64,000 bases of DNA from Alkalicella caledoniensis (lineage in GTDB: Bacteria > Bacillota > Proteinivoracia > Proteinivoracales > Proteinivoracaceae): contig NZ_CP058559.1 in NCBI RefSeq assembly GCF_014467015.1, positions 682,001 through 746,000 on the forward strand, read 5' to 3'. The notes below the pieces were generated by a model. That model made no database searches. It saw nothing but the letters and a program-made list of their open reading frames with translations, and was not told where the DNA came from. Shown piece after piece: positions 28,954 through 62,568 of the stretch. A program made the translations under genes and the position numbers. How positions within the stretch are numbered: position 1 is the stretch's first letter; each line of letters begins with the position of its first letter.

Positions 28954-28992
28954 AAAAAACAATAGACTCCTACCCCAGTTTGGGGTAGGAGT
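28954..28992 (-). terminator. Terminator of the mutT unit
   Basis: Perfect 12-bp stem (28966-28977 with 28981-28992) with a 3-base loop, followed on the minus strand by CTATTG and T6. The T-run is offset, so strength is uncertain. Confidence 0.7.
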
Positions 28993-29070
28993 CATTAGCT
29001 TTTATAGCGATTTTAGTGAACTCCATCACTATATATTCCTTTTTCATTTATACTACATTATTTCCCTTAA

Positions 29071-51768: not shown

Positions 51769-51813
51769 CGGGGTCAGGCTTCAATTATCCAATAATGGAT
51801 AATTGAAGCCTGA
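51769..51813. terminator. Palindromic terminator family member 2, interrupted by IS110 copy 1
   Basis: CGGGGTCAGGCTTCAATTAT opens a palindrome with loop AATAAT and the right arm to CCTGA at 51813. The missing CCCCG and T8 lie at 53401-53413, beyond the IS. Rejoined, it is a perfect 22-bp-arm terminator between ric and hydA. Confidence 0.85.
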
Positions 51814-51946
51814 ACATCCCGTTGATTTTGTCAAGTATAGATACTAATTTTCATATTTTTGAATTGCTTACTTTATATGTAATTATGTAGGTAAACATAT
51901 CCTACCATTGAAAATCACTGTTTAAATTTTTAAATTTTAGCAGTGG

Positions 51947-53146
51947 TTATTTTTCTATTTCTTTTTGTATATACATACGATCATTCTTAACCATACTCCA
52001 TATGACCCTTGTTAAATGGCGTCCCAGTGATCTTAGTGCTTGATTATATTTCTTGCCCTCAGCCCGTTTTTTTTCATAGTATTTCTTCGATTGGTCAACC
52101 GACCGTATGTGAATACCTAGTGCAGCCATCATCGCTTTTTTTGCCCTCTTATTGACCTGTCTCGGTGTTTTGGTACCTTGGTAGTCTCCAGAACTATTGT
52201 CCACTGGTGCCATCCCTAGATAGATTGCAAGACCAGCTTCAGATGTAAACCTTTGCATTGTACCAATTTCTCCTGCGATTTCACAAGAGGTTACTATGCC
52301 AAAACCAGGTATGCTCTCAATGATTGTCGCTAACCGAGATTGCTCAAGTAATATCTTCATCTGACTTTCCATCAGTTCTATCTTTTTCTTTAGTTCTAAT
52401 ATTCGTTTAGCATCATCATATATCATTGGACCTACCCAATCTACTTCTTTGCCAAAAGAAGCTATTTCTTGCCAAGAGACAATCTTTTCTGAAAGCGCTT
52501 TACCAATACCAGGTAGCTTCTGTAAGGTTGTTCTCCTTACTTTCGCTGTTTTTCTAAGGTCAGATTTTAAGCTTAAAAGCCTTAATACATAATCTGCACT
52601 AACATCCTTAAATACATCAATAAATCCAGGGCATACAGATTGTAAATCTGCTTGCATACGATTAAGTAATGTCACTTTTTCATCAACTAATTGGCGCCGT
52701 CTACGACTTATGCGTTTAAGTTTGATTTGAGTTTCTTCTACATCATAAACTTCTTGAAGCGTTTCTTTAGCTTGTCCCATAAATGGTACCATGTTCATCA
52801 AGGTTACGATTTCTTTAGCATCAATACTATCGGTTTTAGCAGGGGCTGAAAATATTTCTTTAAAACGAGCTAGCTTTAGATTATTAACATTTAAGAGTTT
52901 ATACCCTTTTCCTTTAATCATCTGATCAAGGGGCCTTGCGTAACCATTTGTACCTTCCATTCCTACTGCTACATTAGATACCTTAAGTTGGCGCGCTTGG
53001 TTAGCAATACGACTAAAAAAGTATTTGAACCCATCTTCGTTATGGGGAATCTCAAATTGGTCCACAATACCTTTAGCGCCTCCAATTGCTACATGATGTT
53101 TGCGATAACCTACATCTACACCAACTAAAAGTTGTTGCTGTTGCAT
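51947..53146 (-). CDS. IS110-family (DEDD + serine) transposase/recombinase, copy 1
   Basis: 399 residues. The N-terminal RuvC-like DEDD domain begins LLVGVDVGYRKHHVAIGG, with EGTNGYARPL, KTDSIDAKEI and later acidic residues. A coiled-coil region follows (about 130-290), then Transposase_20 with SIPGFGIVTSCEIAGEIG and the catalytic Ser region APVDNSSGDYQG. ATG at 53146 follows GGAGGG; an in-frame GTG 15 bases earlier overlaps that site. The protein is identical to copy 2. It would use the bridge RNA encoded just upstream. Confidence 0.94.
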   Translation of the reverse strand: MQQQQLLVGVDVGYRKHHVAIGGAKGIVDQFEIPHNEDGFKYFFSRIANQARQLKVSNVAVGMEGTNGYARPLDQMIKGKGYKLLNVNNLKLARFKEIFSAPAKTDSIDAKEIVTLMNMVPFMGQAKETLQEVYDVEETQIKLKRISRRRRQLVDEKVTLLNRMQADLQSVCPGFIDVFKDVSADYVLRLLSLKSDLRKTAKVRRTTLQKLPGIGKALSEKIVSWQEIASFGKEVDWVGPMIYDDAKRILELKKKIELMESQMKILLEQSRLATIIESIPGFGIVTSCEIAGEIGTMQRFTSEAGLAIYLGMAPVDNSSGDYQGTKTPRQVNKRAKKAMMAALGIHIRSVDQSKKYYEKKRAEGKKYNQALRSLGRHLTRVIWSMVKNDRMYIQKEIEK

Positions 53147-53174
53147 GTTTTTCCCTCCCACCTAATTTTTGCAC

Positions 53175-53345
53175 CCAAGTGTGTTGTAATCCAACGTTAC
53201 GTCTACCAACAGAGCCACTTCCCGTAGGACGGCATCATCCCGGTCAACTTTACGGATACAACAAAAACGAGGGCGGCATTTCAGGACCGAGTTAACTCAT
53301 AAATGAGCAACTAACCCCAGGAGCCACACCCTCGTTTAGTTATAT
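53175..53345 (-). ncRNA. Predicted IS110 bridge RNA, copy 1
   Basis: Same sequence as 60990-61160 in opposite orientation. Target-binding loop stem and donor-binding loop stem as described for copy 2. Limits are approximate. Confidence 0.75.
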
Positions 53346-53411
53346 TTTAACATATATTGATTACTTTTTCGAGGGTATGACCATATATTTCTATGGTAGA
53401 CCCCGTTTTTT

Positions 53412-60924: not shown

Positions 60925-60989
60925 AGATTCGGGGTCTACCATAGAAATATATGGTCATACCCTCGAAAAAGTAATCAATATATGTTAAA

Positions 60990-61160
60990 ATATAACTAAA
61001 CGAGGGTGTGGCTCCTGGGGTTAGTTGCTCATTTATGAGTTAACTCGGTCCTGAAATGCCGCCCTCGTTTTTGTTGTATCCGTAAAGTTGACCGGGATGA
61101 TGCCGTCCTACGGGAAGTGGCTCTGTTGGTAGACGTAACGTTGGATTACAACACACTTGG
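60990..61160 (+). ncRNA. Predicted IS110 bridge RNA, copy 2
   Basis: Non-coding left end of the element with two nested hairpin domains. Target loop: 9-bp outer stem (60998-61006 with 61062-61070), GGC/GCC, then open strands carrying TGGGGTT (61016-61022) and CCTGA (61050-61054) around an apical hairpin. Donor loop: closing GTTGTA/TACAAC (61073-61078 with 61147-61152), open strands with CGGGATG (61093-61099) and TGGTAGA (61127-61133) around a CCGT/ACGG hairpin. These match respectively the left target (with two G-U pairs), the right target with core, the IS right end, and the IS left end with core. Exact RNA ends are not known. Confidence 0.8.
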
Positions 61161-61188
61161 GTGCAAAAATTAGGTGGGAGGGAAAAAC

Positions 61189-62388
61189 ATGCAACAGCAA
61201 CAACTTTTAGTTGGTGTAGATGTAGGTTATCGCAAACATCATGTAGCAATTGGAGGCGCTAAAGGTATTGTGGACCAATTTGAGATTCCCCATAACGAAG
61301 ATGGGTTCAAATACTTTTTTAGTCGTATTGCTAACCAAGCGCGCCAACTTAAGGTATCTAATGTAGCAGTAGGAATGGAAGGTACAAATGGTTACGCAAG
61401 GCCCCTTGATCAGATGATTAAAGGAAAAGGGTATAAACTCTTAAATGTTAATAATCTAAAGCTAGCTCGTTTTAAAGAAATATTTTCAGCCCCTGCTAAA
61501 ACCGATAGTATTGATGCTAAAGAAATCGTAACCTTGATGAACATGGTACCATTTATGGGACAAGCTAAAGAAACGCTTCAAGAAGTTTATGATGTAGAAG
61601 AAACTCAAATCAAACTTAAACGCATAAGTCGTAGACGGCGCCAATTAGTTGATGAAAAAGTGACATTACTTAATCGTATGCAAGCAGATTTACAATCTGT
61701 ATGCCCTGGATTTATTGATGTATTTAAGGATGTTAGTGCAGATTATGTATTAAGGCTTTTAAGCTTAAAATCTGACCTTAGAAAAACAGCGAAAGTAAGG
61801 AGAACAACCTTACAGAAGCTACCTGGTATTGGTAAAGCGCTTTCAGAAAAGATTGTCTCTTGGCAAGAAATAGCTTCTTTTGGCAAAGAAGTAGATTGGG
61901 TAGGTCCAATGATATATGATGATGCTAAACGAATATTAGAACTAAAGAAAAAGATAGAACTGATGGAAAGTCAGATGAAGATATTACTTGAGCAATCTCG
62001 GTTAGCGACAATCATTGAGAGCATACCTGGTTTTGGCATAGTAACCTCTTGTGAAATCGCAGGAGAAATTGGTACAATGCAAAGGTTTACATCTGAAGCT
62101 GGTCTTGCAATCTATCTAGGGATGGCACCAGTGGACAATAGTTCTGGAGACTACCAAGGTACCAAAACACCGAGACAGGTCAATAAGAGGGCAAAAAAAG
62201 CGATGATGGCTGCACTAGGTATTCACATACGGTCGGTTGACCAATCGAAGAAATACTATGAAAAAAAACGGGCTGAGGGCAAGAAATATAATCAAGCACT
62301 AAGATCACTGGGACGCCATTTAACAAGGGTCATATGGAGTATGGTTAAGAATGATCGTATGTATATACAAAAAGAAATAGAAAAATAA
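61189..62388 (+). CDS. IS110-family (DEDD + serine) transposase/recombinase, copy 2
   Basis: 399 residues, identical in protein sequence to copy 1 (RuvC-like DEDD domain, coiled coil, Transposase_20 with SerGly in NSSGDYQG). ATG at 61189 follows GGAGGG. It lies downstream of and in line with the TetR exporter operon, whose terminator is now broken, so it may be read by host transcription. Confidence 0.94.
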   Translation: MQQQQLLVGVDVGYRKHHVAIGGAKGIVDQFEIPHNEDGFKYFFSRIANQARQLKVSNVAVGMEGTNGYARPLDQMIKGKGYKLLNVNNLKLARFKEIFSAPAKTDSIDAKEIVTLMNMVPFMGQAKETLQEVYDVEETQIKLKRISRRRRQLVDEKVTLLNRMQADLQSVCPGFIDVFKDVSADYVLRLLSLKSDLRKTAKVRRTTLQKLPGIGKALSEKIVSWQEIASFGKEVDWVGPMIYDDAKRILELKKKIELMESQMKILLEQSRLATIIESIPGFGIVTSCEIAGEIGTMQRFTSEAGLAIYLGMAPVDNSSGDYQGTKTPRQVNKRAKKAMMAALGIHIRSVDQSKKYYEKKRAEGKKYNQALRSLGRHLTRVIWSMVKNDRMYIQKEIEK

Positions 62389-62500
62389 CCACTGCTAAAA
62401 TTTAAAAATTTAAACAGTGATTTTCAATGGTAGGATATGTTTACCTACATAATTACATATAAAGTAAGCAATTCAAAAATATGAAAATTAGTATCTATAC

Positions 62501-62506
62501 TTGACA
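62501..62506 (+). promoter_or_regulatory. -35 element for an IS110 circle-junction promoter
   Basis: TTGACA at the right end of the element. If the excised circle joins right to left ends with one core TC, TACCAT at 60937-60942 falls exactly 17 bases downstream and can act as -10, driving bridge RNA and transposase. The same is true of copy 1. Confidence 0.65.
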
Positions 62507-62523
62507 AAATCAACGGGATGTTC

Positions 62524-62568
62524 AGGCTACAATTATCCATTACTGGATAATTGTAGCCTGACCCCCCT
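62524..62568. terminator. Palindromic terminator family member 3, left arm cut by IS110 copy 2
   Basis: AGGCTACAATTATCC (62524-62538), loop ATTACT, and GGATAATTGTAGCC with TGACCCCCC and T6. The missing CGGGG-TC is at 60930-60936 across the IS. A shortened hairpin with T-run remains on the plus strand, perhaps still functional there for read-through from the transposase gene. Confidence 0.85.

Follow-up and report, generated by a model that had tools for sequence, protein, structure and literature searches.

Within the 64,000-nucleotide stretch of Alkalicella caledoniensis DNA that was analysed (the window), an insertion sequence of the IS110 group, here called copy A, has an ABC permease gene on one side and a small convergent ORF on the other (Table 1). 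Its left end (LE) of ~250 bp carries two covarying hairpins, its right end (RE) spans ~130 bp, and it encodes a transposase. The protein scores 181 bits with the NCBIfam model "IS110 family RNA-guided transposase", above the cut-off of 140, and it matches the Pfam families DEDD_Tnp_IS110, the RuvC-like N-terminal domain, and Transposase_20. The DEDD residues are D11, E64, D106 and D109 and the C-terminal serine is S319; in the PDB matches, IS621 and ISCro4, E64, the KTDxxD motif and S319 are aligned. The phmmer match to IS621 has an E value of 1.7e-7 and covers two separate stretches.

Copy A measures 1587 bp from core to core, plus one core, and is identical over its full length to a second element in the window, copy B. 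The donor sequence of the element is CGGGATGTTCTACCA and the target sequence is CGGGGTCAGG, which around the core read CGGGATGT-TC-TACCA and CGGGG-TC-AGG, respectively, at copy A. When the flanks of copy A are joined, ...ATTCGGGG-TC-AGGCTACAATTATCCATTACTGGATAATTGTAGCCTGACCCCCCTTTTTT gives a stem of 22 bp without a mismatch, together with a T tract; the target lies at the foot of this stem and CCTTTTTT comes after it. At copy B, the rejoined empty site gives a stem of 23 bp, after which the + strand reads TTTTTTTT. Joining at TC thus restores an uninterrupted palindrome in both cases, as expected for a short shared core with no other target duplication. The predicted RE-LE circle junction rebuilds TTGACA-17-TACCAT, and the 17-base spacing is the same in the junctions of relatives. 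A separate promoter-like site stands upstream of the hairpins (Table 1), in a leader region where the number of such sites is near the shuffled mean.

Table 1. Coordinates of the two element copies and of the features assigned to copy A (window positions)
Feature	Position	Strand	Remarks
IS110-group insertion sequence, copy A	60935..62523	+	left core TC to right core TC
Copy B, 100% identical, inverted relative to copy A	51812..53400	-	different palindrome, same point
Split palindrome, left part CGGGGTC	60930-60936		
Left core dinucleotide TC, then RD TACCA	60935..60936	+	same in relatives
Promoter-like site TCGAAA-17-TAAAAT, TG before -10	60963..60991	+	consensus match; just upstream of RNA
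Candidate bridge RNA	61000..61155	+	target-binding hairpin ~61000-61069; donor-binding hairpin ~61072-61155
LTG TGGGGTT	61016..61022	+	would pair with bottom strand of CGGGGTC, two G-U
RTG CCTGA	61050..61054	+	would pair with TCAGG
LDG CGGGATG	61093..61099	+	
RDG TGGTAGA	61127..61133	+	would pair with TCTACCA
IS110 family RNA-guided transposase, 399 aa	61189..62388 (ATG 61189, stop 62388)	+	DEDD + S319
TTGACA -35-like box in right end	within 62501..62508	+	from sequence
Right core TC, LD CGGGATGT before core	62522..62523	+	same in relatives
Split palindrome, right part AGGCTACAATTATCCA-TTAC-TGGATAATTGTAGCCTGACCCC	62524..62566	+	

Leader hairpins and their guide segments

An earlier note on this DNA had described two nested hairpins upstream of the transposase ORF that carry four guide strings. 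Both hairpins are present, at ~61000-61155, and all four strings were recovered base for base; the length of the candidate RNA, ~155 nt, is an estimate from sequence. The loop of the first hairpin can pair with both target strands, and this pairing takes in the core, where the LTG forms G-U; the loop of the second can pair with both strands of the RE-LE junction. The LDG has two mismatches, one at position 7, immediately before the core, and one at the core's second base. The seven-base donor matches of the earlier note are likewise present, but since only GTAGA of the RDG is conserved in relatives, the other two of its seven matching bases may be fortuitous. The base that follows the RTG, A61055, can pair with T7 of the donor and not with G7 of the target, while the base that follows the RDG, C61134, can pair with G7 of the target and not with T7 of the donor. 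Read from the sequence, these two bases form a handshake pattern.

Could four such segments arise by chance? With wobble allowed, four guides in this order and spacing were found in 7 of 100,000 Markov shuffles of the leader, which corresponds to a chance below 1e-4. Among 18,216 overlapping 250-nt segments covering both strands of the window, 38 qualified, a number (counted as a total, the positions not being individually listed) equal to that expected from two copies of the element. With a z of -2.3, the folding energy of the single strand stands out only mildly, and for this reason the argument rests on the guides together with covariation. With the reservation that the structure was taken in part from the alignment's own consensus fold, so that the figures lean in its favour, a structure of 20 pairs is retained in 93.8% of cells across eight distinct RNAs, eight pairs are changed on both sides (a number reached by 5 of 500 shuffles), and the covariation score of 0.362, against 0.172, collapses once the partners are slid. 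Three of the compensatory pairs (AU to GC, GC to AU and AU to GC) fall in the lower stem of the target hairpin; counts for the target loop of one relative (L063) are unreliable because MAFFT misaligned it at an extra hairpin insert. No Rfam family matches the RNA, and a permissive scan of the leader returned a single chance-level hit.

Relatives and their junctions

The relatives share 47-67% protein identity. One genome (G003) holds seven copies of a 64% identical element, a second (G004) holds two to three, and a third (G209) holds four (60-67%); relatives of 47-51% identity lie on contigs labelled Atribacteria (L063) and Zetaproteobacteria/Ghiorsea (L064, L065, L066). Two phylum draws of genomes added G209 only, and searches at the level of class (13 genomes) and order (5 genomes) added no relatives. 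Plasmids contained no relative at E 1e-40, with only 25-29% identical IS110 proteins at 1e-20, and viral contigs yielded none, whether searched with the single protein or with the alignment. Four more IS110-type transposases in G000 (L042-L045) have 24-27% identity and belong to other lineages. A decayed relative was also seen (L003, G000:C1:1219168-1219390), in which a left end and a bridge RNA, 77% identical, follow the left flank CAGGGTC and carry the guide TCGGGGTA; no transposase was seen in the part read.

The junctions of these elements are nearly uniform. Of 18 distinct left junctions collected by pattern capture, 16 end in GGGG-TC and two are one base off; the standard form is GGGGTC-TACCAT, and the exceptions are the decayed remnant (AGGGTC-TAACAT) and L069 (GAGGTC). 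The left junction of L063, assigned by eye, reads GGGGTC-TACCATT as well. All 19 right junctions read GGGATGTTC-AGG except those of L065 (AAG), L068 (AGA) and L063 (GGG). The right flank TC-AAG of L065 goes with the guide CTTGA of L064/L065, and the right flank TC-AGA of L068 goes with the guide TCTGA of G209, each with U in the guide. Neither AAG nor AGA would pair with the CCTGA guide of the window, whereas GGG would pair by wobble. Because guides and ends are nearly invariant among the relatives, guide-target covariation rests on these two variants. To the right of the element at L060, a sequence beginning GTGCGCCCAGCATG... follows a terminator-like hairpin and resembles the start of a group II intron.

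How, then, is the target recognised? One hypothesis is that a real IS110-type insertion sequence is mobilised by a protein that itself recognises the GGGGTC-AGG repeat end, such that the hairpins serve only in 5' UTR regulation and the matches of the guides are vestigial or accidental. The near invariance of target and guides in the close family, where neither clearly follows the other, would be compatible with this hypothesis. However, four ordered guides are very unlikely to arise by chance, the two target variants follow their own guides, and the layout equals the one experimentally shown for IS621; we therefore regard recognition by protein as highly improbable. Reading the leader as a bridge RNA, as the earlier note had done, is instead supported by the guide geometry, the second copy, the 18 left and 19 right junctions, the stem changes, the junction promoter and the handshake bases.

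Occupied sites and the repeat at the target

The earlier note, which proposed looking for further copies at sites matching CGGGG-TC-AGG, missed copy B in the same window. Copy B is inserted at CGGGG-TC-AGGCT, between the C-terminal ends of two genes whose products, judged from the translations and with no database search behind the names, are a [FeFe]-hydrogenase-like subunit and a hemerythrin/ScdA-like protein. That the copies are 100% identical and only 7.5 kb apart would also suit homologous copying or duplication in place of two targeted insertions, in which case the shared site would say little. This account is extremely improbable, given that the flanks differ in both palindrome (CTACAATTATCC at copy A, CTTCAATTATCC at copy B) and neighbouring genes, and that G003, G004 and G209 contain more copies that share this junction but lie at other sites. 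As inverted identical sequences flanking ~7.5 kb, the two copies are a ready substrate for inversion; the interval contains hydrogenase-like subunit genes and an ABC transporter operon, likewise named from translations without a search.

The earlier note proposed that the RNA programs insertion into terminator palindromes. Both occupied sites are indeed 22-23 bp terminator-like stems between convergent genes, but this description does not extend to the family. For several relatives, the GGGGTC-AGG site contains no palindrome, and the target of the G003 element, found uninterrupted (AACATTGGGGTCAGGCTTTTGATATTTCAATAC) in G004 and nearly so in G003, is not palindromic in either genome; the guide thus reads about ten bases and not a hairpin. 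A repeat in G003 and G004 (L090, L099, L106) begins GGGGTCAGGCTTTTGATATTTCAATACTTGACC, and a repeated ORF (MSVVASLDEIVEAMELQ...) comes after it.

A more fitting description of the target is the end of a REP/RAYT-like repeat. In the genome, GGGGTCAGG occurs 28 times, against 8 for a reversed control pattern; eight of these occurrences are the arms of four uninterrupted palindromes (1480363, 1536568, 1653747 and 3168071), two more are the arms left unbroken at the occupied sites, and one-base variants of the repeat lie at 1054173 and 1538027. The same GGGGTCAGG begins and ends an element encoding a protein like the REP-associated tyrosine transposases, and four genes of this kind (L022, L023, L107, L110) are bounded by it. 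L022 begins GGGGTCAGGCTTGAAGTTTTTCC and the last codons of its gene fit the reverse complement of that sequence, while in both L022 and L023 the gene closes with MEKLQA and a stop, codons that fit the repeat end CCTGACCCC. The protein scores above the cut-off for Pfam Y1_Tnp and below it for NCBIfam REP_Tyr_transpos (69 against 80 bits), so that the RAYT label, which draws on these profile matches, is likely but not certain. RAYT genes have been described as flanked by inverted REPs (PMC2817692), and the presence of IS110-family elements in REPs is already well known (PMC1525189). We lean slightly towards a broader hypothesis, namely that the guide of a TC-core bridge-RNA lineage became fixed on GGGGTC-AGG, the conserved end of REP-associated tyrosine transposase elements, so that in hosts from unrelated phyla one mobile family would home by RNA guide into repeats spread by another.

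Proposed mechanism and comparison with known elements

A role of the hairpins purely in cis, as an attenuator or another regulator of the transposase mRNA, is barely credible: they do stand directly upstream of the ORF, and transposase leaders can be RNA-regulated, as reported for ISPpu9 (PMC8450116), but conservation extends from the stems to the loops, which match the element's ends and its target, and a scan gave no intrinsic terminator between the RNA and the ORF. The hairpins may have a regulatory role in addition to guiding.

We are highly confident that the locus is an autonomous IS110-group insertion sequence with a bridge RNA in its left end, guided to GGGG-TC-AGG. Its anatomy, boundaries, guide complementarity, stem covariation and site specificity over many copies are established at the level of sequence, while expression of the RNA, formation of an RNP and the chemistry would be as in IS621. 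By this analogy, the left end would encode the bridge RNA, the first hairpin would pair with the genomic target GGGG-TC-AGG and the second with GGGATGT-TC-TAC, the junction of the element's own circle, and strands would be swapped at the common TC core by the DEDD/Ser recombinase, resulting in scarless insertion with no further target duplication. Excision as a circle would rebuild the TTGACA-17-TACCAT promoter, which would then drive both RNA and recombinase.

This scheme agrees with the mechanism published for IS621 in 2024, but has a new target and TC as its core. Each loop of the IS621 RNA uses its 5' side to pair with the bottom strand of target or donor and its 3' side to pair with the top strand, core included; after strand exchange, the guide bases beyond the core pair with the other DNA, and the promoter is likewise divided between the two ends (PMC11208160, PMC11208158). 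The present element resembles the E. coli IS621 in its left-end bridge RNA, its LTG/RTG and LDG/RDG loops with the core in the guides, the handshake base at position 7, the split junction promoter, the DEDD and Ser recombinase and REP palindromes as targets. It differs in its core, TC here whereas IS621 favours CT with T second, in the sequences of target and donor, and in that protein similarity is weak. Like ISPpu9, ISPpu10, ISPa11 and ISRm19, which always lie in REP sequences (PMC1525189), it is an IS110-family element inserted in repeated extragenic palindromes, although its host and REP sequence are different. A non-coding IS RNA that guides target choice also recalls the seekRNA of IS1111 and IS110 elements (PMC11187229). 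Elements of the IS1111 type keep this RNA in the right end (PMC11208160), whereas here it lies in the left end and the right end is short, as in the IS110 group. A long right end and subterminal inverted repeats are marks of the IS1111 group.

The known picture is unchanged by this element, which adds a bridge recombinase whose sequence is only remotely similar to that of IS621 and for which a TC core, a defined natural target and numerous natural junctions are available, extends the link between IS110 elements and REPs to another bacterial lineage, and offers a useful test case for the range of core and target choice. Elsewhere in the window, a fluoride riboswitch (RF01734, 50 bits) lies at 28979-29039 on the - strand and was the sole Rfam match in a gathering scan of the window.
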